Shown in pieces: positions 398-31,038 of a stretch of DNA of 33,549 nucleotides (positions are counted from its first letter, which is position 1; every line of letters starts with the position of its first letter). Made by a program: the position numbers and the translations under genes. The stretch lies in contig JAGAAO010000067.1 in the NCBI GenBank assembly GCA_017615275.1, positions 1-33,549 of the forward strand, given 5' to 3'. The stretch comes from Butyrivibrio sp. Its GTDB lineage: Bacteria; Bacillota; Clostridia; Lachnospirales; Lachnospiraceae. The notes beneath the pieces are model-generated. The model made no database searches and was not told where the DNA came from. It was given only the letters and a program-made list of their open reading frames with translations.

Positions 398-2290
398 TTG
401 AAAAAAAGAATACCTGCAACACTTACTATTACACTCATCATCTTATCTTTGTGCTTATCTGCATGTCATGCCAAATACACAACACCGAAACAGGATGACT
501 CTTCTCAGGCAGAAGCATCTGCAAATCCCAAAATCACCGAAGAAACAGATGAATACCCTTTATTTTACGGAAACGATCCGCTCTTAGGATACCAATTCTA
601 TACAGTGGACAAAAACGGCAACAAAAAATGCAATGTTTCCGAGAAGACACAAGCCATATTAGAACAAAACAACATAGACCTTGAGCAGCTTGACATATAT
701 ACCTGCTATCTCATAAACAGCATCTTATTTATAGAAGGATATTCAAAAGAAGAATCAGACGCATTTTTCTATGCATTAGATATAAATAATAACCGCCTTG
801 AGAAAATTACAAACAGCACCTTAGTTGATTACATCGATTATTACAACGGCAAACTATATATCGGTTTTTACGATCCCGAGGCCAAAAATAGCGAGTACGC
901 TTATACCATTTCAGACGATTTTTCTTTTACACCTGAAGAAACCGATCATCAAAAAGTATTAGACTACATAGGCGGATATACAGCAGATGGCTACAAAATT
1001 GGATACGAAATAGAAAAGACTCCCAACTGCACATACCGTATGGAAGGAATCGGTTTTTCCATATCACGTGCATTTGATGAAGCCGGATATGTTCTCGCTT
1101 CCAGATATGAAAACATGAAAAAAGAATTTATCAGGATCTTCCCCGACGGAACAAACGCAGAGATCAAAGAATTGAAAGCCATCGACGCCAAACCGCTCTA
1201 CTACGACAATAATACAATTATTCTTGCTGCCGAAGCGATCATTAATCTCAGGGATGCAAAAGAAATATATACACTCGATCTAAAAAGCGGTACCTTGGAG
1301 CACATCACTGATCTTGGAGAAATAATACAGCTTGCCGACAACAAGGTCTTCCACAGAAAAGACGATTCACTTTACGCTTTCGATTTAGAAGAAAAAACAG
1401 ATTCTCTGATATATAAGTTTGAAAAAATCACAGGAGTAAATGTTGATTTATATGACAGGTATCAGATCATAAACGGCAATATATTTGTCAGTGATTTTAA
1501 AGACGCAGAGCTTAAATGGTTTCGATTAACAGGCTGCGAAGAAGGCGCTTCAGCCGTTGATATAGATTGTCCGATTAAAACTATTTCTGCATATAAAATC
1601 GGTACCGTAACAGCTAATTCCTCCAACTACAAATGTCCGTTCTGCGGCACTAAAATGATAGAGAGCAATTATGAACTTTTCAGGTTAAACGACGGCTATT
1701 CCGAACACACCGAAGAGATCAATAAAAAACTCAAGGAAAAAATGGACTACTTCCTTAATCATACTGAAGATGATACTCCTAACATTGAGATTACAGATGA
1801 CAGTTGCTGCGAATACCACAGCGATCCGAACTTTACCGAACGCTTTTTCAGAGAAAAAACCGTAACAGAGGCCAACATATACAATTCCCGTTTCCTTACC
1901 GTAAACATGTACTACTACTGGTTTGGTGGCGGGCCTCATGGTTTGTATCATACTGACATTTATGTATTTGACCTTACAACCGGAGAAGAACTTGGTATAA
2001 TAAATTTCTATCCGGGCACAGAGTCAGAATTCGCAGCTCTAGTCGCTAAAAATTTCAATAAAGAATATCCTGCCTATCCATGGCATTATGAAGACAACAC
2101 AGAGCCATCATCTGATGACGAAAAACGCGATTTAGGCTATTTTGACTCAACAAACATACGCTACTACAATGACCACATAACATACTGTTTTAACATATAC
2201 GAAATGGGGGCATATTGTGATGGTGAATATCTTGTAGATATCACCTACGAAGAATTAAACGGCAATAAGGAACTCACCCGAGTAAGATAA
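398..2290 (+). CDS. lipoprotein with DUF3298-like C-terminal domain, copy 1
   Basis: The 630-residue protein starts with a lipoprotein signal (MKKR, a hydrophobic stretch, then the lipobox LSAC near residues 20-23), so it should be tethered to the outer face of the membrane. A long middle part has repeated aromatic and acidic motifs that resemble a beta-propeller sensor (inference). Around residue 410 is a knuckle with CPFCG, a single C-x2-C pair. The C-terminal ~130 residues (GGGPHGLYHTDIYVFDL, then TGEELGI) match the DUF3298/RsiV-like fold seen in envelope-associated proteins. The start is TTG: the SD-like CGGAGAA lies 7 bases upstream, no ATG is nearby, and the signal peptide begins exactly there. 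It is followed at once by a paralogue. Ligand and role are unknown. Confidence 0.8.
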   Translation: MKKRIPATLTITLIILSLCLSACHAKYTTPKQDDSSQAEASANPKITEETDEYPLFYGNDPLLGYQFYTVDKNGNKKCNVSEKTQAILEQNNIDLEQLDIYTCYLINSILFIEGYSKEESDAFFYALDINNNRLEKITNSTLVDYIDYYNGKLYIGFYDPEAKNSEYAYTISDDFSFTPEETDHQKVLDYIGGYTADGYKIGYEIEKTPNCTYRMEGIGFSISRAFDEAGYVLASRYENMKKEFIRIFPDGTNAEIKELKAIDAKPLYYDNNTIILAAEAIINLRDAKEIYTLDLKSGTLEHITDLGEIIQLADNKVFHRKDDSLYAFDLEEKTDSLIYKFEKITGVNVDLYDRYQIINGNIFVSDFKDAELKWFRLTGCEEGASAVDIDCPIKTISAYKIGTVTANSSNYKCPFCGTKMIESNYELFRLNDGYSEHTEEINKKLKEKMDYFLNHTEDDTPNIEITDDSCCEYHSDPNFTERFFREKTVTEANIYNSRFLTVNMYYYWFGGGPHGLYHTDIYVFDLTTGEELGIINFYPGTESEFAALVAKNFNKEYPAYPWHYEDNTEPSSDDEKRDLGYFDSTNIRYYNDHITYCFNIYEMGAYCDGEYLVDITYEELNGNKELTRVR

Positions 2291-2313
2291 AAAAGAAATA
2301 CGGAGAACCAAAC

Positions 2314-4182
2314 TTGAAAAAAAGAATACCCGCAACACTTACACTAATCATCTTGTCTTTGTGCTTATCTGCATGTCACGCTAAAGGCACAACGCCTGAG
2401 CAAGTCGACTCAGCACAGGCAGAAGTATCGGCAAATCCTCAAAGCGCCGAAGAAACAGATGAATACCCCTTATTTTACGAAAACACCCCACTCTTAGGAT
2501 ACCAATCCTATTTAGTGGACAAGAACGGCAACAAAAAATGTAATGTGACTGAAAAGATACAAGCCATATTAGAGCAAAACGGCGTAGACTCTGAAAATTT
2601 AGGTATGTATAGCTGCTATTTCATAAACGGTATCTTTTACTGCGTATCAAGTTTCGAAGAAGATACCGACGTAGCTTTCTATGCAGTAGATATAAATAAT
2701 AACCGCATGGGGAAAGTTACAGACAACACCTTCATAGATTACATAGATTATTACAACGGCAAACTATGTATCGGTTTTTTCGATCCAGACGGCAAAAACA
2801 GCAGCGAGTACACTTATACCGTTTCAGACGATTTTTCTTTTACACCTGAAACAACCGATCACCAAAATATATTGGACTATATTGGCGCACATACAACGCC
2901 CCTATACAAAATAGAAAAGACTCCTAACTGTGCATACCGCACGAAAGGAAGCGGTTTTTCCATATCAAGGGCACTTGATGAAGCAGGATATGTTCTCGCT
3001 TCAAGATTCCATAACGAGCAAAAAGAATATATCAGAATCTTCCCTGACGGAACAAGTGAAGAAATCAAAGAATTGAAAAACATAACAGGCCATCCGCTCT
3101 ACTACGATAAAGATAGAATTATTCTTGCCGCCGACGAACTTAATACTATTGAGTACGCAGACGAAGTATACACCCTTGATCTAAAAAGCGGTACCTTGGA
3201 ACACTTCCCGGATCTTGGAGAAATAATACAGCTTGACGGTAACAAGGTCTTCCACAGAAGAAAAGACGGTTCACTTTACGCTTTTGATCTGATAGAAAAA
3301 AAAGACTCTCTGATATATAAGTTCGAGGAAACTCCCGGTGTACCTATCGATTCATATCATCAGTACCAGATCTTAAACGGCAATGTATTTGTATGCGATT
3401 ATAAAGATGCGGAGCTTAAATGGTTTCGATTAACAGGCTGCGAAGAAGGCGCTTCAACCATTGATATAGAATGCCCGATAGAAACTTTCTCCGCATATAA
3501 GATCGGCACCGTAACATCCAATTCCTCCGACTACAAATGCCCGTTCTGCGGCAATGAATTATTAGATAGCAATTATGAACTTTTTAAATTAAACGACGGA
3601 TATTCCGAACACACCGAGGATATCAACAAAAAACTCAAAGAAAAAATGGACTACTTCCTTGATCATCCGGAAGATGATTATGAGATTAAAGACGACAGTG
3701 ACTGCGAATACCACAGCGATCCGGATCACTTCGTCAATTACAGAGGAGAATCCGTAGGATCAGCCAACATATACAATTCACGTTTCCTTGCTGTAGACAT
3801 GGAATACTTCTGGTATGGCGGCGGACCGCATGGCTTGTATCATACCGACATTTATGTATTTGACCTTTCAACAGGAGAAGAACTTGGCATAAAGAACTTC
3901 TATCCGGGCACTGAAGCCGAATTCAAAACTCTTATCGCAGAAAAAGTCAAAGAAGATTTTCATGAAAATCAGGCGCATTATGAAGGCAGATCAGAATCAG
4001 ACTGTTATGACTCGGCGTATAAGTTGGTCTCTTTTGACTCAACAAACATACGCTACTACGACGACCACATAACATACTGTTTTAACGTATATGAAATGGG
4101 TTCATATGCTGCCTCAGAATATCTTATTGACGTCACCTACGAAGAATTAAACGGCAATAAGGAACTCACTAGAGTAAGATGA
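2314..4182 (+). CDS. lipoprotein with DUF3298-like C-terminal domain, copy 2
   Basis: This 622-residue paralogue of the preceding gene has the same layout: a lipoprotein signal with lipobox LSAC, a middle region with a DLKSGTLEHFPDLGEI-type repeat, a CPFCG knuckle, and a C-terminal GGGPHGLYHTDIYVFDL block of the DUF3298 type. The TTG start and its ribosome site are identical to those of copy 1, and the 23-base gap means the two are almost certainly one transcript. Differences are spread over the whole protein and include several short indels, suggesting that both copies are maintained. What it binds is unknown. Confidence 0.8.
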   Translation: MKKRIPATLTLIILSLCLSACHAKGTTPEQVDSAQAEVSANPQSAEETDEYPLFYENTPLLGYQSYLVDKNGNKKCNVTEKIQAILEQNGVDSENLGMYSCYFINGIFYCVSSFEEDTDVAFYAVDINNNRMGKVTDNTFIDYIDYYNGKLCIGFFDPDGKNSSEYTYTVSDDFSFTPETTDHQNILDYIGAHTTPLYKIEKTPNCAYRTKGSGFSISRALDEAGYVLASRFHNEQKEYIRIFPDGTSEEIKELKNITGHPLYYDKDRIILAADELNTIEYADEVYTLDLKSGTLEHFPDLGEIIQLDGNKVFHRRKDGSLYAFDLIEKKDSLIYKFEETPGVPIDSYHQYQILNGNVFVCDYKDAELKWFRLTGCEEGASTIDIECPIETFSAYKIGTVTSNSSDYKCPFCGNELLDSNYELFKLNDGYSEHTEDINKKLKEKMDYFLDHPEDDYEIKDDSDCEYHSDPDHFVNYRGESVGSANIYNSRFLAVDMEYFWYGGGPHGLYHTDIYVFDLSTGEELGIKNFYPGTEAEFKTLIAEKVKEDFHENQAHYEGRSESDCYDSAYKLVSFDSTNIRYYDDHITYCFNVYEMGSYAASEYLIDVTYEELNGNKELTRVR

Positions 4183-9788: not shown

Positions 9789-10560
9789 ATATTGATTTCT
9801 TAGCAACGATGAGGTATCTGTGAATCGTACCTTCAATGTAGCCGTTCTTATCAAGAGCTTCCTGCATTTTCAGAAGCTTCTCAAAACATTTTTCAACTGA
9901 AAAGCCCGGGAACTCCCACTCAATAATGTGGGCGAACCACACAAAAGCTCCGATATCATAGAATCTGATCGGTCTGAATGCTTCTTTTGCCTCGATAATC
10001 TCAAATCCTTCGTCTTCGAACTTCTTCCTCTGTATGGAAAGCTCCAATTCAGAAAAGGGCTCTGCAACATCAGGTAGAACCATCTCAACCAGATCTCTGT
10101 CATTTTTTCCTCCGACTTGCTGTGTAACAAAGATTCCATTTGGCTTAAGAAGCCTGTATATTTCGGCAGGATCAAAGCTTCCGTGCCTGTTTATCATCAT
10201 ATCAAAAGAGCTATCCTCAAATGGAATCGAAGCCGCATCGTCACAAGGTCTGAAATCTATTCCCAAGGGCAAAAGCTTTTCTTTGCACAATTCCACATTC
10301 GGCGGATATCCTTCCGTAGCTGCAGTGTTATTATACGGATGTTCCAAAGACAACAGGAACTCACCGCCACCGGTATCAAAATCCAAAATCTTCATATCGA
10401 GGCGGCGATACCTGTCAATCATCTTCCTGTAGTCCCAGGGAATATCATCCTCCTCTTCATATCTGCCATGTATATGCGAAAAATCCCAACCGTGTATATG
10501 CGCTACTTCTTCCTCTGCTTCCCACGCTTTTTTCAGCTCACTTATTCTCTCTGTATTCAT
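9787..10560 (-). CDS. class I SAM-dependent methyltransferase
   Basis: Starting at MNTERISELKKAW, 257 residues. Motif I of Rossmann-fold methyltransferases is seen as ILDFDTGGGEFLLSL near residue 57, followed by an acidic residue at the end of strand 2 (TEGYPPNVELCKEKL). A D-D-A-A-S-I-P-F-E-D-S-S-F-D-M motif follows, and then the R-L-L-K-P-N-G-I-F-V-T-Q-Q-V-G-G strand typical of small-molecule or nucleic acid methyltransferases. The substrate cannot be told from sequence. It overlaps the MATE gene (ATGA) and has the SD AAGGAGC, so it is the last gene of the operon. A longer frame from 10629 lies inside the MATE gene and was rejected. Confidence 0.85.
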   Translation of the reverse strand: MNTERISELKKAWEAEEEVAHIHGWDFSHIHGRYEEEDDIPWDYRKMIDRYRRLDMKILDFDTGGGEFLLSLEHPYNNTAATEGYPPNVELCKEKLLPLGIDFRPCDDAASIPFEDSSFDMMINRHGSFDPAEIYRLLKPNGIFVTQQVGGKNDRDLVEMVLPDVAEPFSELELSIQRKKFEDEGFEIIEAKEAFRPIRFYDIGAFVWFAHIIEWEFPGFSVEKCFEKLLKMQEALDKNGYIEGTIHRYLIVAKKSI

Positions 10561-11909
10561 GTCTGCTCCTTTTGTTTGCGTATGGTATAAAAATAGGTTA
10601 TGACGAGAATCAGATCCGCCAAAATCCAAGCTCCGATCTCACCGTAGAAAATACCGCTGCATCCGATAAACGATGTGAGCACGAGCGCACAGGATACTCG
10701 CATGATTAGCTGTCCAAAGCTTGAAATCATCGGAACTATTGTGTTTCCAAGTCCCTGAAGCGCAGCCCTCATTATATATAACATGTATAGCAATGGATAA
10801 AAAATACCCAGAATGAGTAGGTACTCTTTTCCATAAACAAATATCTCCTCTGAAACGGAAGCCTCATCTACAAAAAGCTTCATTGCCGCTTCTCCAAAGA
10901 AGATCATGATAACCGAACATATAAAAGCCGTCGCAACGCCCATTAGAAGGCTTATTCTGACGCCGCTCCTTATCCTGTCTTTTTTCTTTGCCCCGTAGTT
11001 CTGTGCAACATAGGCAACAACCGCCATTCCGTAGGATGATGCCGCAATCTCCAACAGCGCGTATATCTTACCCGCTATGGTGTAACCCGTTAGGAAACTG
11101 ATATCATAGCGGTTTACGCACCTGATAACAATTAGTCCTCCGATTGCAGTTATTACGCTCTGCAGCGCAATCGGCATTCCAACCATCAACAGTTCTCCGA
11201 TTACCTGAAAATCTCCGGGGGTATTCGAATCCCCTGCATGCTCCATTGTCTTTTTCCTGATTTCCAAAACATGATATCCGCATATCACCATGACAAGGCA
11301 CTCGGAAAGCACTGTACCAAGCGCTGCTCCTGCGATTCCCATATTTAATACGCAAATGAACAAAAGATCAAGAATGATATTACAGATTGATGAAATTGTC
11401 ATCGCCATCAAATGTATGCGGCTGTTTCCGCGGCTTCTCAGCACTGCGGCAAAAAACTGATAAAACACCAAAAACGGTATTCCCACAAATATCACATTTA
11501 CATATGTATGTGCGTAGCTGAAAGCTTCAGGCTTAGTACCGATGAGCCTTAGTAAAAAACCGGAAGATAGTAGCAATACCGCCACAAACACAACCGATAT
11601 CACAAGGCACAGTAGCACTGCCTTTTTGTAATATCTTCCGAAATCTTTTTCATTGTTTTCACCAAATTTTTTTCCAAGAATAACGGAAAAACCTTGAATA
11701 AGACCGATAAGAAAACCGTTTACCAAAAAGAGAAGCCAATCTGTCCCTCCAACTGCCGCAAGTCCAATAGGACCTATTTTCTTGCCGATTATAATACTGT
11801 CAACAACTGTATATAGCTGCTGGAAAACATTTCCCATCATCATCGATACGGAAAATGAAAAAATCAGTCCAAAAGGATTGCCTTTAGTCAAGTCTTTATC
11901 CCTACTCAC
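10557..11909 (-). CDS. MATE-family efflux transporter (operon member)
   Basis: The 450-residue protein has about twelve membrane segments and the MATE landmarks: N-terminal G-N-P-F-G-L-I-F-S-F-S-V, then V-F-Q-Q-L-Y-T-V-V-D-S-I-I-I-G (residues ~28-42), a G-L-A-A-V-G-G block, and a second half starting near residue 240 with the same topology. MATE proteins export cationic drugs or metabolites against Na+ or H+. Translation starts at GTG 11909: the SD is a run of six G ten bases upstream, and the in-line ATG at 11911 is in the wrong frame. Only one base separates it from the stop of the flavoprotein gene. Confidence 0.9.
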   Translation of the reverse strand: MSRDKDLTKGNPFGLIFSFSVSMMMGNVFQQLYTVVDSIIIGKKIGPIGLAAVGGTDWLLFLVNGFLIGLIQGFSVILGKKFGENNEKDFGRYYKKAVLLCLVISVVFVAVLLLSSGFLLRLIGTKPEAFSYAHTYVNVIFVGIPFLVFYQFFAAVLRSRGNSRIHLMAMTISSICNIILDLLFICVLNMGIAGAALGTVLSECLVMVICGYHVLEIRKKTMEHAGDSNTPGDFQVIGELLMVGMPIALQSVITAIGGLIVIRCVNRYDISFLTGYTIAGKIYALLEIAASSYGMAVVAYVAQNYGAKKKDRIRSGVRISLLMGVATAFICSVIMIFFGEAAMKLFVDEASVSEEIFVYGKEYLLILGIFYPLLYMLYIMRAALQGLGNTIVPMISSFGQLIMRVSCALVLTSFIGCSGIFYGEIGAWILADLILVITYFYTIRKQKEQT

Positions 11910-11910
11910 A

Positions 11911-13065
11911 TCAAACAGCCCCCCTTAACAAGTCTTTCTTTTTAAGTCCGTTCTCTTTTCCTCTTCTTGGCCAAAAAGAGTTTGCAATAAACATGTAAAT
12001 TGCTCTCGGGAATTTATAGGCATCGGCATAAATATCTTCAATGCTTGAAGATGAGCTGATTGCTTTTGCAAGAGCATCTAAACCGGATGCGATGTTGCGC
12101 GTAGGACCTTTCTTGATGTCTGCCGCTTTCATCATCGCCCCCATCATCTCGCCTGCGCCTATCGCAATTCCTCCGCAATATTCATAGCCGCATTTGCCGC
12201 ACCAATCTCTTACCATACTCATAAGATTCTTTAGCTGGGAACTCTCATACATTCCCATGTTGGAAACAACATATACTTTTTTGTCAGAAGCCTTAGCACA
12301 CTTTTCAAGCTTTTCCATGATACGCAGTGTATTTGAAGGAATTCCGTCAACATAGAGCGGCATTCCCAAAACAAGCCTGCGTGCTGATCTAAGCTGTTCC
12401 AAAAGCTCATCCTCCCGCCCGTTATATGACACGAGATTGATGATTTCTTTTTCTCCTTCAATACTCTCTGACAGCTTATTAAGGAACTTAAACGAATTGG
12501 CGTTGTTTCCCCTTGAGCTGCAATTAAGAAGAACTGCTTTATCGGATGTATCTTGATTAGCAGCTTTAACTTCCATGCTCTCAGCCTCTTTTTCAATCTC
12601 CTCAAATTCGATTCCGGATATTTCTCCGTGCAGATTCCTGCAGACTGCCCTGACATACTGTCTTGCTTTGTCTTTATCTGCATCTGTAAGTCCGTTGCCA
12701 CGGAAAACAAATCTCACAACAGCGTCCTTGGAATATCTCTTTTTGTGGTGCATCTCGCCTTCGTACACTTCAAAAAAAGGAAGCACAAAACCGATTACTC
12801 TATCAAAAACATTTTTTACAAAGCTGCTGAAACCGCCGTAGGTATATCTACTGACAACGGTGATCTCATCCGCTTCATGGAAAAGAGCTGCAACACGCTC
12901 ATATCCGTCTTTGATAACACACTCTCCGGGCTCCTTGATCCAGCAGCCAAAACAGCCTGCGCAAGGTCTTATCTTGCCATTGTCTGAAATGATCTCCCAG
13001 TCTGAATAATTCGATGCTACCTTGTTCCATTCTTCTTTGCTGTAATCGTGAATCAAAAGTTTCAT
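11911..13065 (-). CDS. two-domain flavodoxin / NAD(P)H-dependent FMN reductase-like protein
   Basis: 384 residues in two flavodoxin-like halves. The first (residues ~1-160) carries the C-x2-C-x2-C signature of iron-sulfur-type flavoproteins, seen as IRPCAGCFGCWIKEPGECVI, plus YTYGGFSSFVKNVFDR, a pattern of the WrbA/FMN-reductase family. The second (residues ~175-330) shows a phosphate-binding loop (LLNCSSRGNNANS) and GMPLYVDGIPS. The C-terminus ends in a basic tail (FWPRRGKENGLKKKD). It is likely an oxidoreductase using FMN and possibly metal-bound cysteines. Its ATG overlaps the TGA of the regulator gene (ATGA), and a GTG-start exporter follows, so its substrate may be the exported or modified compound. 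Confidence 0.8.
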   Translation of the reverse strand: MKLLIHDYSKEEWNKVASNYSDWEIISDNGKIRPCAGCFGCWIKEPGECVIKDGYERVAALFHEADEITVVSRYTYGGFSSFVKNVFDRVIGFVLPFFEVYEGEMHHKKRYSKDAVVRFVFRGNGLTDADKDKARQYVRAVCRNLHGEISGIEFEEIEKEAESMEVKAANQDTSDKAVLLNCSSRGNNANSFKFLNKLSESIEGEKEIINLVSYNGREDELLEQLRSARRLVLGMPLYVDGIPSNTLRIMEKLEKCAKASDKKVYVVSNMGMYESSQLKNLMSMVRDWCGKCGYEYCGGIAIGAGEMMGAMMKAADIKKGPTRNIASGLDALAKAISSSSSIEDIYADAYKFPRAIYMFIANSFWPRRGKENGLKKKDLLRGAV

Positions 13066-14108
13066 GTCGAAATCCTTCCTGCCAATGATTTCCAGTATTC
13101 ATTCTCATGCATATAATCAAAACGTTTTTCTTCAACAAATCTTTTTATAAGCTTTGTTCTGAAATTCTCAGTGAATTCGTCGCTAACGTCTTCTATCGTA
13201 ACGTGTGAAAAGAAATCCGACTTCGCATAGTCCAATATTGTATCTACGCTATCTATGAGTTGTTTCATTATCTCTGCAGTTGCTTCAACATCTTTTTCAT
13301 GAACAGCGAGCATTATTCTGAATGCATTCTCCTGATAAACTCCGAGGTCAAAGCACTTTGCAATATTGCAATTAAGCTCTGACGTACGCTTTGCAAGCTT
13401 CATATCATTTTTTTCCAAGCAAAATACATGCAGAGCATCCACGATCATTCTCAGCCTGCTCATCTGCTCGAACAACAATGTCTCATAAGCGGTGTAGGCT
13501 TCATCATCCTTACCTGTTTTGGCAAGAATCTGTGCGTTAAAAAGCTTTTTGTCAGGATTCTCATCTGAGAAGTATTTAAGATACTCCTGTGCTTTCTCAT
13601 ATTCTTTTTTGTTCATATTAAGGTGAAAAAGAGATTCTGCCGCAATCTTCCTTATAAAAGGATCTTTGGCGTCAATTAACTGCGAATACCACAGGAATAT
13701 TGTATCACAATACTTATCTTCATCTAAAACGTTCTTCATTATAAGCGCCGAATGAAGCGTTATCGCAGCCTTCCACTTGAGTTTTTCGCAGTTAGGATAT
13801 TTTTCGACTTTTTCTTTGGCAAGATTAAACATGTCTTCAAACGGCACATCGCTATTAATCTTCACACTCAGATCTTGGGCAAAAACTTCGATTTCCTCAT
13901 CCGTCAGCTCATCTTTATATGCAAGCAATTCATCTGTAGTTATTCCGAGTAATCTTGCAATCGGCGCAAGCATGCTTATATCCGGAAGTGTATTGCCGTT
14001 CTCCCATTTATTGACCGCGGGCGTTGTCACTCCGAGGCGCGATGCCATTTCTTCCTGCGTAAATCCAAGCTCTTTTCTATATTTTCTGATAGTATTTCCT
14101 AAATTCAT
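13062..14108 (-). CDS. XRE-family transcriptional regulator with helical C-terminal domain
   Basis: From MNLGNTIRKYRK, 348 residues. Residues ~1-60 are a classical helix-turn-helix (KELGFTQEEMASRLGV, TPAVNKWENGNTLPD). The remaining ~280 residues are alpha-helical with repeated units such as EYEKAQEYLKYF and DDEAYTAYETLLFEQ, resembling tetratricopeptide-like repeats that often bind a peptide or small-molecule signal. A start at 14147 is open, but the ATG at 14108 follows GGAGGAAGAG directly and gives the usual domain start. It heads the operon, so autoregulation is likely; a 17-bp palindrome covers the ribosome-binding region. Confidence 0.85.
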   Translation of the reverse strand: MNLGNTIRKYRKELGFTQEEMASRLGVTTPAVNKWENGNTLPDISMLAPIARLLGITTDELLAYKDELTDEEIEVFAQDLSVKINSDVPFEDMFNLAKEKVEKYPNCEKLKWKAAITLHSALIMKNVLDEDKYCDTIFLWYSQLIDAKDPFIRKIAAESLFHLNMNKKEYEKAQEYLKYFSDENPDKKLFNAQILAKTGKDDEAYTAYETLLFEQMSRLRMIVDALHVFCLEKNDMKLAKRTSELNCNIAKCFDLGVYQENAFRIMLAVHEKDVEATAEIMKQLIDSVDTILDYAKSDFFSHVTIEDVSDEFTENFRTKLIKRFVEEKRFDYMHENEYWKSLAGRIST

Positions 14109-14118
14109 CTTCTCTTCC

Positions 14119-14135
14119 TCCAATAATTTATTGGA
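14119..14135 (-). promoter_or_regulatory. 17-bp perfect palindrome at the XRE regulator ribosome site
   Basis: TCCAATAA-T-TTATTGGA is symmetric over 17 bases and overlaps the SD of the regulator gene on the minus strand. It is followed by a second symmetric element, GAACCGGTTC, at 14134-14143. Either it is an operator for the regulator itself, or the RNA copy folds and hides the ribosome site. Confidence 0.4.
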
Positions 14136-14268
14136 ACCGGTTCTCATGGAAACGTAGATCTAATCAGTATTTCCACATACCATGATATAGGATAACCATA
14201 GGAATTACTATTGAATAGGCGTTAATTATCAGGAAATTTTTTTAACCGTTGGGAATATTTCAAAAGCA

Positions 14269-15663
14269 TTAAGCGCAAACAGTGAGGTTCTTAAGCCACC
14301 GTTCTTTTCGCAGCCAAACGAAGAATATAACAACCTTTACCAGATCGAGCAATTTAACGCCAAGGTACATCGTAACAGGACCTACAGTTGTATATTTCGC
14401 AAATATGAACAGCATGGGAAGCATAATAGTAATTGTAAGGAGCGCATCCGTATACATTCCCATCGCTGTATCCCCGCCTGCTCTTGCAACAGCCTGCTGT
14501 GCATTCATAAGCACCCATATCGGCATAAAAATTGACAGCAGTATTACCATGCTCCTACAGATATGAACCGCGCTTTCACTAAGCCTTCCGAATACGACAG
14601 GAACCACCATTGTTGTTCCAAAGCCAACAAACATCATGATAAATCCCAGTACAACAGCACCTGACAATATCCATTTTTTCTGTATACGAGCCTCTTCCAA
14701 ACGCCCTTCTCCCAACGTCTTTCCAATGATAACTCCGGTTGCGGAATAGATACCACCAAAAGCAATAAAGAAAAGATTGCCGACAGCAAAACTGCATGAC
14801 ATTCCCGAAACGACATCCGCTCCTCCTCTTCCGTTGTAGATAGCAGTCGTCAAAGTTTCCGACAACACCCATACCATTTCGCAGAAAAGAACCAGTGCCC
14901 CTTTCTTTGCCATAGTCCAAAACAATTTTCTGTCAATCCTAAACAGCTCTATGAATCCCACTTTAAATTCAGGTTTGACAGCAATATATACACCAATAAA
15001 TGCCACAAGTTCAACTGTTCTGGCAATTACCGTTGCATAAGCCGCTCCTTTTACACCGTATGCAGCAAATCCCAGATGTCCATAGATCAGAACCCAGTTA
15101 AGACAAGTATTGGTAAGTGTCGCAACAACCGTAATCACAAGCGGTATCTTTACCCTTCCCATATCTCTTAACGAACTGGCGATACACATAGAAATCGTCA
15201 TGGGAACCCCCATAAAGAAAGCAATTCCTATATAATTCACCGCTTGATCGAGTATCAGATCCGCCTGAGAATTTCCAATAAGCATAAGCGACAGTATCTG
15301 TCTCGGGAATACTCTGCACACAAGGTAGTACGGAACAAATGCCGCAAATCCCATAAACACTTTAAATCTGAAAGCCTGCCCCATTCCGTTACTGTCTTTT
15401 GCTCCAAAATACTGTGTCATAAATATGCCACCTGCCATACAGATCGTATTTAGATAGACCATAAATATGAACAGTATCTGTCCCGCCACATTAACGCCTG
15501 ACATGCAGACATCTCCAAGTCCGGATACCATAAAGTTATCAACCAGCGAAACCATATTCTGTATAAGCTGCTGAAGCATTATCGGCACCATTATAGACAG
15601 AGCATGTATATAAAATTTCCCGGGGCCAAAAAATTTTCCCCCATTATTTTTTATTTTATACAT
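14269..15663 (-). CDS. MATE-family efflux transporter (leader-controlled)
   Basis: This 464-residue MATE protein of a different subtype from the operon copy has Q-Q-L-I-Q-N-M-V-S-L-V-D-N-F-M-V-S-G-L-G-D near residues 32-52 and about twelve membrane helices. The second half starts around residue 245, and the C-terminus ends in a positively charged tail (WLRKERWLKNL). Members of this branch export drugs or metabolites in exchange for Na+ or H+. The SD AAAGGAGGGAG is about 8-10 bases before the ATG, so translation itself does not look blocked. The leader upstream contains a leader peptide and a terminator, suggesting control at the level of transcription elongation. Confidence 0.9.
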   Translation of the reverse strand: MYKIKNNGGKFFGPGKFYIHALSIMVPIMLQQLIQNMVSLVDNFMVSGLGDVCMSGVNVAGQILFIFMVYLNTICMAGGIFMTQYFGAKDSNGMGQAFRFKVFMGFAAFVPYYLVCRVFPRQILSLMLIGNSQADLILDQAVNYIGIAFFMGVPMTISMCIASSLRDMGRVKIPLVITVVATLTNTCLNWVLIYGHLGFAAYGVKGAAYATVIARTVELVAFIGVYIAVKPEFKVGFIELFRIDRKLFWTMAKKGALVLFCEMVWVLSETLTTAIYNGRGGADVVSGMSCSFAVGNLFFIAFGGIYSATGVIIGKTLGEGRLEEARIQKKWILSGAVVLGFIMMFVGFGTTMVVPVVFGRLSESAVHICRSMVILLSIFMPIWVLMNAQQAVARAGGDTAMGMYTDALLTITIMLPMLFIFAKYTTVGPVTMYLGVKLLDLVKVVIFFVWLRKERWLKNLTVCA

Positions 15664-15761
15664 GAAAACTCACTCCCTCCTTTGATTTTCGTTTCCGCCA
15701 TTTCTTTTTCTGTATTATTTATTTCCAAAATATATGGGAATTCGAATGCAAAAAAATGCAA

Positions 15762-15790
15762 AGAAAAACCGTGACGCATAAGCCACGGTT
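15762..15790 (-). terminator. intrinsic terminator in the MATE leader (attenuator)
   Basis: AACCGTG (15790-15784) pairs with CACGGTT (15773-15767), with a 10-base loop, and is followed by TTTTTC on the minus strand. It lies about 100 bases upstream of the MATE start and downstream of its promoter, so it acts before the gene. The 5' arm can pair instead with CCTCGGTT (15845-15838) with one mismatch, which would prevent the terminator from forming. Confidence 0.65.
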
Positions 15791-15825
15791 AAAAAACATT
15801 GTAGTAATATATCAGAATACAATTA

Positions 15826-15891
15826 TTAAAATGCACAAACCGAGGTTCCCATACTATATTCAGTTACAATCTCTATTCTCACTCTTAACAT
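15826..15891 (-). CDS. putative 21-codon leader peptide upstream of the MATE gene
   Basis: An ATG at 15891 opens a 21-codon frame that starts MLRVRIEIV and ends GTSVCAF before TAA. GAGG lies about 11 bases upstream, a slightly long but usable SD. The first codons contain R-V-R, which fits the R/K-x-R/K pattern known to arrest ribosomes in the presence of macrolides in erm and related leader peptides. The last codons (ACC TCG GTT) contain the sequence that can pair either with the SD region (CGAGGT) or with the 5' arm of the terminator. Such a short frame could arise by chance; the position relative to the pairing elements is what makes it notable. Confidence 0.5.
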   Translation of the reverse strand: MLRVRIEIVTEYSMGTSVCAF

Positions 15892-15915
15892 AAATATGAT
15901 TACCTCGCTTTCTTT

Positions 15916-15944
15916 AATATTTGTCACTTACAAGAGTCTATCAA
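15916..15944 (-). promoter_or_regulatory. candidate promoter for the MATE leader
   Basis: TTGATA (15944-15939) and AATATT (15921-15916), separated by 17 bases, predict transcription starting near 15909, just before the leader SD. The -10 is imperfect, so the call is moderate. Confidence 0.5.
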
Positions 15945-16031
15945 CAAATCGGATATAAATCAACCCTAAATTTGAGAAAAGGAAGTTCCGCTCATACTTT
16001 TTTTGATCCAAAATAATACATTATACTTCGC

Positions 16032-17876: not shown

Positions 17877-18357
17877 TTACCGCATGGGAAAATTGAACAC
17901 GATATTCCTGATCCAGCAGCCGTTTTCGATCTTCTTCTCCGTACGTCGCCTGCCATATGCGATCTTTCCCATATATACGGGGTTATCCAGAACACTCTTT
18001 ATAAAGCCCGGTGAAAATCTCGGTATCGTATTGTTCTGTCGAAGCTTCTTAGTATAACCGTTATCGTTAAGATATGTTGCAACACCTCTTATGCCGGAAT
18101 TCGTATGGATGTAGCGGTCAAATATACTCCACACCGTCCTCACCACTCTCAATCTTTTCCATCATACGGACAAACTCCGGTCTGCCCTTGATGTTCTTGC
18201 CGGAATGACCTTCGTCAGAAAACTCTTCCGCTATGGTCATATCCTGATATTCGGCATATTTACGCAGCTTGTCTTTCTGTGCATCCAGGCTGTACCCGTC
18301 CACCTGTATCGCAGTGGATACGCGGGTGTAGATATAACATTTCTTTTGTTTCTTCAC
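17877..18357 (-). pseudogene. large serine recombinase with internal deletion and frame change
   Basis: The first frame (18357-18118) encodes the resolvase N-terminus: YTRVSTAIQVDGYSLDAQ, with the catalytic serine in Y-T-R-V-S-T, and EEFSDEGHSGKNIKGRPEF. It stops after GEDGVEYI. A second frame (18152-17877) continues with the Recombinase (PF07508) domain: IFDRYIHTNSGIRGVATYLN, YTKKL, NPVYMGKIAYGR. The part that normally lies between (second half of the resolvase fold plus linker, roughly 100 residues) is missing, and the halves are out of frame. The end beyond KKIEN also degenerates. It starts at GTG with the SD AGGTGAT, overlapping the KilA-N stop (GTGA). It once catalysed integration or inversion but should now be inactive. 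Confidence 0.85.
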
Positions 18358-30515: not shown

Positions 30516-30523
30516 ATAGCCTT

Positions 30524-30991
30524 GAGCAGGACAGGTGATCGCTGCCATGCAGACGAAAGGGCATGGGAGAGGAAAGTCCGGGCTTCGCAGGGCAGGATGC
30601 CAGATAACGTCTGGCGGAGGCAACTCCCGAGATAGTGCAACAGAGATATACCGCGTTAGCAATGAGGCGGGTTGGCTATGGAATGATTGTCGGATGCACG
30701 CTTGCGTGCAAGACGACACATCATGACATAGACACACGGCGAATGCCGTGTAACGAGGAAAGCTTGCTTTCCGAGTCTCGCCTCTTTGATCCGTAAGGGT
30801 GGAAAGGCAGTGTAAGAGACTACCGTGCTGGTGGTAACATCAGTAGCCATGTAAACCTCATCCGAAGCAAGACCGAGAGGAAAGCTATGAACCGGCCCGG
30901 TTCGCTTTCAGGTGGGTCGCTTGAGACTGTCGGTGACGGCAGCCCTAGATAGATGATCACCCCCGACATAACCCGGCTTACAGTCCTACTC
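30524..30991 (+). ncRNA. rnpB: RNase P RNA (catalytic subunit)
   Basis: Bacterial RNase P RNA is recognised by its conserved core: GAGAGGAAAGTCCGGGCT at 30567-30584 (5' strand of P4 and surroundings), AGTGCAACAGAGATA near 30634-30648, the GTAAACCTCATCC-type block around 30850-30863 followed by GAAGCAAGACC, and near the 3' end GACATAACCCGGCTTA. The ends GAGCAGGAC (30524-30532) and GTCCTACTC (30983-30991) pair to close helix P1. It removes 5' leaders from tRNA precursors together with a small protein. At ~468 bases it is somewhat longer than typical (~350-400), reflecting extended peripheral helices. A strong terminator follows. Confidence 0.95.
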
Positions 30992-30993
30992 AT

Positions 30994-31038
30994 AAAAAAG
31001 TAGTGAAAAACTTCATTGAAGTTCTTCACTACTTTTTT
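30994..31038. terminator. strong bidirectional terminator after rnpB
   Basis: AAAAAAGTAGTGAA and, after a single bulged base, AACTTCA pair with TGAAGTT and TTCACTACTTTTTT, a stem of about 20 bp around a 2-4 base loop with A/T runs on both sides. It ends rnpB on the plus strand and the secreted-protein gene on the minus strand. Confidence 0.92.

Follow-up and report, generated by a model that had tools for sequence, protein, structure and literature searches.

The short leader in front of a MATE exporter gene in a Butyrivibrio sp. is probably a ribosome-arrest attenuator of the vmlR/cplR layout and one copy of a leader family of the Lachnospiraceae. It lies on the minus strand, with a divergent gene on one side and the MATE gene on the other, in a stretch of 33,549 nt that was analysed at full length (contig JAGAAO010000067.1; hereafter the window). 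Its leader frame, its terminator and its mutually exclusive pairings are real. A sequence-only reading of this DNA had claimed a Shine-Dalgarno (SD) sequence (C)GAGGT, a 21-codon frame and an intrinsic terminator with a T-run, all ahead of the MATE gene, and all were present as claimed (Table 1), as were the two pairings it named, CGAGGT with ACCTCG and CCTCGGTT with AACCGTGG, the latter with one T.T mismatch. The GAGG of the leader SD begins at 15906 (minus strand), and segment 2 can pair with segment 1, 3 or 5. Segment 5 may also pair with segment 6, the MATE SD (ATTCCC with GGGAGT), a pairing seen by eye and weak in folding. From the terminator to the MATE start at 15663 there are 103 nt; this start was set by hand in place of a wrong automatic one, and gene starts at the other loci were picked automatically. 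The leader RNA of 146 nt folds at -33.8 kcal/mol vs -26.3 kcal/mol for shuffles (z -2.1), with 2 of 200 shuffles as good.

Table 1. Leader elements and the gene behind them in the window.
Feature	Position	Strand	Basis
Likely promoter TTGATT-17-TAGACT	15935..15963	-	family distance to SD; prediction only; another site scores higher in the window
Segment 1, leader SD region GCGAGGTAATCATA	15895..15908	-	GAGG the same in all 29 aligned leaders
Leader ORF, 21 codons + stop, MLRVRIEIVTEYSMGTSVCAF	15826..15891	-	frame read; similar peptides in relatives
Segment 2, late codons TATGGGAA CCTCGGTT	15838..15853	-	CCTCGG the same in all 29 aligned leaders
Segment 3, terminator 5' arm AACCGTGG	15783..15790	-	CCG[TC]GG there in 81/89 loci
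Intrinsic terminator hairpin, then T-run	15767..15790	-	-12.6 kcal/mol
Segment 5 TTCCCATA, the complement of TATGGGAA in segment 2	15733..15740	-	RNAduplex energy matched by 3/200 shuffles
Segment 6, MATE Shine-Dalgarno region GGAGGGAGT	15672..15680	-	sequence
MATE family exporter, 464 aa, presumed regulated gene	14269..15663	-	Pfam MatE 2.9e-36; TIGR00797 160.9 bits, cut-off 147.4

The leader is widespread in its genus and beyond. Its DNA had matches in 31 of 41 genus genomes (BLAST, E<=0.001, own genome counted), those other than the window itself lying at other loci, and the window's own genome holds one more copy, on contig C66. A covariance model built from 29 leaders found the family in 53 of 79 Butyrivibrio genomes and, with strict filters, in at least 26 of 397 sampled family genomes and 23 of 334 genera, the 26 positive genomes including the window's own and one genus-mate. 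In a sample of the class, 7 of 391 genomes were positive, all 7 Lachnospiraceae. We tabulated 90 leader loci including the window; 89 have a complete leader and terminator (the leader of L159 is truncated) and 85 have a called downstream gene, with none called at L141, L229, L236 and L238.

The MATE protein has its closest named relatives in Butyrivibrio, and among 16 close orthologues (at least 67% identity, window included; upstream DNA read) the window alone has the leader directly before the gene, L003 offering merely 211 nt of readable upstream DNA. The covariance model was also run over 66 MATE-bearing loci, some of them duplicated records and several with little upstream DNA (e.g. L003, L068, L083). 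It matched in the window and at L006 (=L040), where the order is leader, RsgA-like gene, MATE, and reached chance level at L052 (E 0.063). The sequence-only reading had proposed conservation in related genomes as a check, and the answer is divided: the leader is absent directly before the other close MATE orthologues but kept at other loci, which points to a movable module and not to an ancestral MATE leader. The latter, with the other close orthologues lacking the leader directly in front, was ruled out. A search of viral contigs found no relative of the MATE protein.

Several other features were seen around this gene and its orthologues. Behind MATE on the same strand (10557-14147, minus) lie an XRE-type regulator, a flavodoxin/FMN reductase-like protein and a second MATE gene, which together with the first possibly form one drug-response cluster. 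A different recurring terminator-like hairpin, AGTGTAAAACAG..GTG..CTGTTTT, stands upstream of MATE at L002, L003, L011, L012, L014 and L015 (L007 has a variant), and also at G004:C10, G012:C52, G028:C14 and others. It has 50 exact matches in 17 of 41 genus genomes, with 0 for the reversed control and 0 in the window's genome, and contigs with several matches carry them all in the same orientation. Elsewhere in the window there are two ORFs in tandem, 630 and 622 aa long (398-4182, plus), alike by eye and with lipoprotein-like starts, and a short ORF (17877-18152, minus) that resembles, by eye, a site-specific recombinase fragment.

Transcription of the leader would start from a promoter at a position shared by the family. 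The best promoter-like site ends 26-31 nt ahead of the GAGG in 49 of 90 loci, and TTGATT-17-TAGACT of the window stands 28 nt ahead of it, with 8/12 matches and a predicted start near 15928. The sequence-only reading had preferred TTGATA-17-AATATT (15944-15916), with a start near 15909. That site exists and takes the window's top score in the same scan (9/12 matches), its '-35' overlapping the -10 of TTGATT-17-TAGACT; however, promoter-like sites are no commoner than in the shuffled region (11 against 14.5 expected), and from 15909 the transcript would have only about 3 nt ahead of the GAGG. We set it aside in favour of the family position despite its score, and the promoter had probably been misplaced.

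Six segments are shared by the family, with 3 and 4 as the two arms of the terminator. The pairing segments were compared across loci, leaving out of the shuffles, pair table, swaps, permutations, equilibrium folds and arrest scan every locus with a terminator-to-gene distance outside 40-240 nt, and out of the pair table, swap comparison and permutations the five loci of a second class of leaders (class B, described below). Own partners beat swapped ones for 1:2, 2:3 and 2:5, so that the covariation which the sequence-only reading had asked for among its pairing segments is borne out across loci. Over 70 loci, own vs swapped partners gave z 8.2 for 2:5, 5.4 for 5:6 and 3.7 for 2:3; when each distinct segment 2 was represented by a single locus (n=37), 2:5 gave z 6.3 and 1:2 z -5.4, each with 0 of 5000 permutations as good, in permutations that leave the relatedness of loci in place. 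In 50 of 77 loci, no more than 5% of shuffles equalled the RNAduplex energy of segment 2 with the post-terminator region. When 67 distinct pairs were tabulated without gaps, more than one pair type occurred at several positions (at offset -10, A-T 25, C-G 7, T-A 5 and G-C 3), in a register chosen to maximise pairing, which favours such variety. The window's TATGGGAA and TTCCCATA depart from the common family TATGAAGACC and GGTCTCCATA, yet they match, and at offsets -2 and -3 of 2:5 both sides are unlike the commonest family pair with pairing kept. Even so, 62% of foreign post-terminator regions pair with the window's segment 2 as well as its own does, the median over 70 loci being 31%.

Within the genus alignment (29 rows), helix 1:2 showed no covariation beyond shuffles; its register is right, with 89% paired vs 33-48% when slid. 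RNAalifold on a leader alignment returned only four GAGG:CCTC pairs, with a covariation term of 0. In the terminator 5' arm, CCG[TC]GG is missing from 8 of 89 loci, of which 5 are class B.

Folding predictions agree with a switch that acts during transcription. Before the terminator's 3' arm emerges, helix 2:3 exceeds 0.5 in 18 of 89 loci with segment 1 uncovered vs 80 of 89 with it covered, and in the window covering segment 1 raises it from 0.27 to 1.00. By a stricter measure, 2:3 formed in 89% of 88 distinct transcripts when covered and in 14% when uncovered, against 10% of 440 shuffled-downstream controls. At equilibrium the terminator wins in every state (0.97-0.99 in the window; means of 0.96-0.98 over 77 loci), so that antitermination must be kinetic; the window's terminator is also more stable than its 2:3 (-12.6 vs -9.2 kcal/mol). 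Antiterminator and terminator thus exclude each other by sequence and in folding before the 3' arm emerges, but not at equilibrium. With the conservation in relatives and the covariation across loci, the attenuator of the sequence-only reading, made of an anti-antiterminator (1:2), an antiterminator (2:3) and a terminator, is supported.

That reading had missed a second, translational layer predicted for the family. When read-through RNA is folded, the main SD is predicted to open in 56 of 77 loci and to close in 8, and in most relatives a second layer unmasking the main SD is predicted. In the window this layer is predicted to be weak or absent: the MATE SD goes from 0.31 to 0.44 open with a wide block, stays unchanged when a footprint of ribosome size is placed at codons 1 and 3 (0.29-0.36 vs 0.31), and 2:5 forms at most at 0.09.

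We propose that, without drug, segment 2 would pair with the leader SD region (segment 1) or sit under translating ribosomes, the terminator (3:4) would form and MATE would be off. A ribosome arrested on the leader would block 1:2, most effectively when it stands at codons 1-4 and covers segment 1; segment 2 would then pair with the terminator 5' arm (2:3) ahead of the 3' arm, and RNA polymerase would read on into MATE, whose product might export a ribosome-targeting drug. In most relatives segment 2 would move on to 2:5, releasing the main SD from 5:6, a second, translational lock.

The position of this arrest was scanned in the window and in 24 sampled of 59 relatives, with a model that ignores the bulk of the ribosome in the hairpin loop. 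With the P-site at codons 1-4, 2:3 reached 0.97-0.99 in the window and fell from 0.84 to 0.46 in relatives; it was low at codons 5-8, rose again at codons 9-10 (0.80-0.88 in the window, 0.54-0.57 in relatives) and was zero from about codon 13 onward. Among the positions tested, the relatives' main SD opened only at codons 1 (0.44) and 3 (0.38) vs 0.15. A start-proximal arrest would therefore serve both layers, and one at codons 9-10 only the first. We favour a start-proximal arrest of the lincosamide, pleuromutilin or streptogramin A type, or any early-elongation block; drugs of this type are suggested by the start-proximal position, by the variable N-terminus of the peptides and by the precedents of vmlR (MIN) and cplR (MR[I/M]). 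For these two systems, the cited part of PMC10201436 expects arrest by pleuromutilins, lincosamides, streptogramin A and nucleoside antibiotics with little demand on context. The same part gives the MIN sequence as crucial for induction of vmlR by lincomycin (PMC10201436), so context may matter.

An arrest that depends on the peptide itself, with a macrolide-bound ribosome at R3-V4-R5 or a drug stop at codons 9-10 after EIV and the switch otherwise the same, is unlikely. The fold model of the window would accommodate it: a P-site at codon 4, where the sequence-only reading had placed its stall, gives a 2:3 of 0.97, and codons 9-10 also score high. The stall motif behind that placement is not conserved, however. 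In the 69 distinct leader peptides of class A (six loci whose frame differs were left out of the peptide and codon statistics), K/R occupies both positions 3 and 5 in 3, any [RK]x[RK] falls within residues 2-8 in 6, and RLR occurs in none. K/R at position 5 is found in 49 of 69, and E, I and V are the commonest residues at positions 7-9; yet EIV as such occurs in 32 of 69, and no purifying selection was found on codons 7-10 (EIVT; pN/pS 1.30, with 0.58 at codons 11-14). Arrest at codon 9, moreover, would leave the relatives' main SD closed in the model (0.12 vs 0.15 without arrest). The stretch Thr/Ala/Pro-Ser-Val/Ala, present in 69 of 69 peptides, is the RNA-pairing stretch. An ErmD-type MRLR or +X+ macrolide leader was rejected on the lack of a conserved R/K-x-R/K motif; a macrolide response of the window leader via R3-V4-R5 is possible in the model and would be nearly private to the window.

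There is likewise little probability that the leader is a relic, a module that once served a lost gene such as RsgA2 and now yields the short RNA only, with MATE read from its own promoter past the terminator. The gene order at L006, with RsgA2 between leader and MATE, would fit such a history, as would the weak 2:5 and 5:6 of the window and the other MATE orthologues without a leader directly in front. Decay, on the other hand, would sit badly with an SD, an ORF, a 1:2, a 2:3 and a terminator that are all intact, with TATGGGAA and TTCCCATA matching though both are unlike the family, and with a consensus scan that gives no minus-strand promoter between terminator and MATE.

An amino-acid attenuator sensing charged tRNA, e.g. 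for Tyr, is very improbable. A Tyr codon stands four codons ahead of the Thr codon in 65 of 71 distinct codon rows, and with this codon in the A site (P-site codon 11) 2:3 averages 0.44 vs 0.15 in the 24 relatives; in the window, however, the same arrest gives 0.27 vs 0.22, there is one Tyr codon and no run of control codons, and the called genes are not for amino-acid biosynthesis. A ligand-binding riboswitch or protein-controlled terminator, although it would account for a conserved and structured leader, is just as remote, given the four pairs from RNAalifold and the lack of an Rfam match to the leader: at gathering score, Rfam 15 found in the window only a class A RNase P RNA (30523-30996, plus, 290.6 bits), and at E<=1 the matches in 11 relatives lay only away from the leader (a T-box elsewhere in L161; one miRNA match).

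The ribosome-arrest switch thus preferred stands in front of many unrelated genes. The 85 downstream genes (84 clustered and the window's) were assigned to families by scanning cluster representatives, and some automatic starts are internal or the gene is broken (e.g. L225, L242, L248, L250, L255, L262). An RsgA-like cluster makes up 65 of the 85 by sequence clustering, with 29 of the 65 at 456-533 aa, the size of a GNAT-RsgA fusion; one of each form was scanned, L129 giving RsgA_GTPase 2.4e-42 with Acetyltransf_7 and L131 RsgA_GTPase 1e-48. The rest comprises ABC exporters (5/85; L157 scanned), a GNAT cluster (5/85; L263 and L235 scanned), two alpha/beta-hydrolase-like genes and single genes: another GNAT, an RNHCP protein, a kinase with a marginal chloramphenicol-phosphotransferase match, unscanned genes and the window MATE. 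At L148 the leader precedes an ABC-F gene (462.8 bits, cut-off 380, for ribosomal protection-like proteins).

Two RsgA proteins in the window's genome, encoded on C42 and C66, pass the Pfam cut-off; they are 31% identical, and the leader-linked RsgA is, judged by sequence, a paralogue. A search with the C66 RsgA in 41 genomes gave 16 other matches longer than 300 residues, at 71-77% identity and all at leader loci (by eye); the next genus matches were mostly at 29-36%, shorter fragments at 74-81% occurred in G007, G017, G021 and G024, and matches in other families' genomes reached 39-54%. L160 (G024:C16:122240-122722) has RsgA2 fragments with a terminator in front, no leader SD was found there, and it looks like a decaying copy.

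The five class B loci (L157, L158, L161, L271, L273) were found via short DNA matches or weak model matches. They share the SD region and CCTCGG, their peptide is unrelated (..TLPRD..), and their terminator reads CCC[AT]AGGTA or close, which fits their own segment 2: 2:3 comes to -13.9 kcal/mol with own arms vs -7.7 to class A arms. The genes behind all five belong to a single ABC-exporter cluster. In class B the switch logic appears to be retained and the letters changed.

Somewhat short of even confidence, we suggest that a movable two-layer ribosome-arrest sensor, so far seen in Lachnospiraceae only, wires a translation-stress regulon of a second RsgA (alone or GNAT-fused), ABC-F, ABC and MATE exporters and acetyltransferases. 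The main client, RsgA2, would in that case be a factor for resistance or rescue, so far unrecognised, that acts on the small subunit of the ribosome and has its counterpart in HflXr for stalled 70S ribosomes. What these loci offer is a prediction, made from sequence, of a set of rumen and gut bacterial genes that would answer to ribosome blockage. The main client singled out in this way is a second RsgA-like GTPase, which makes it directly testable whether RsgA paralogues protect ribosomes from drugs. MATE export, if the prediction is true, would join the targets of attenuation by leader peptides. In the open-access literature (subscription papers and preprints lay outside the scope) we found no description of the leader family or of an attenuated RsgA, and no MATE attenuator among the matches listed, by title or abstract start.

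Among known systems, the translational attenuator of ermC works by a 1:2, 2:3, 3:4 logic, with no known mid terminator and with peptide-dependent arrest. This logic matches segments 1, 2, 5 and 6 of the leader family. In Listeria, hflXr encodes an additional copy of a GTPase that associates with ribosomes, and with the small-ORF attenuator ahead of it (rli80) it is a parallel to RsgA2; according to the cited part of PMC6310831, this attenuator has a 14-aa ORF with an RLR motif, acts by transcription attenuation and serves HflX (PMC6310831), whereas the main client of the leader family is RsgA. In cplR of C. difficile, as given in the cited part of PMC10201436, a short uORF, MR[I/M], is joined to combined transcriptional and translational attenuation, as predicted for most of the leader family, but its SD lies inside the terminator hairpin, whereas SD masking in the leader family would be a separate pairing behind the terminator.

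The closest layout is that of vmlR in B. subtilis. There the layers predicted for the leader family follow in the same order, namely a uORF in an anti-antiterminator hairpin, an antiterminator, an intrinsic terminator and an SD-sequestering hairpin, the last being opened by pairing in the read-through RNA, as described in the cited part of PMC9226507. The uORF of vmlR is MIN in the cited part of PMC10201436, whereas the window leader has about 21 codons of other sequence in another taxon. A predicted uORF with its SD inside an anti-antiterminator hairpin, as in vmlR and cplR, was found; the gene of vmlR is an ABC-F, whereas that of the window is a MATE, the relative at L148 standing before an ABC-F. 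The window locus is thus predicted to work like the vmlR/cplR type, although by gene it is not a vmlR/cplR locus. The layers are known from vmlR; what appears new is the range of clients, which is unusually broad: one and the same switch recurs ahead of unrelated genes, with its helices adjusted.
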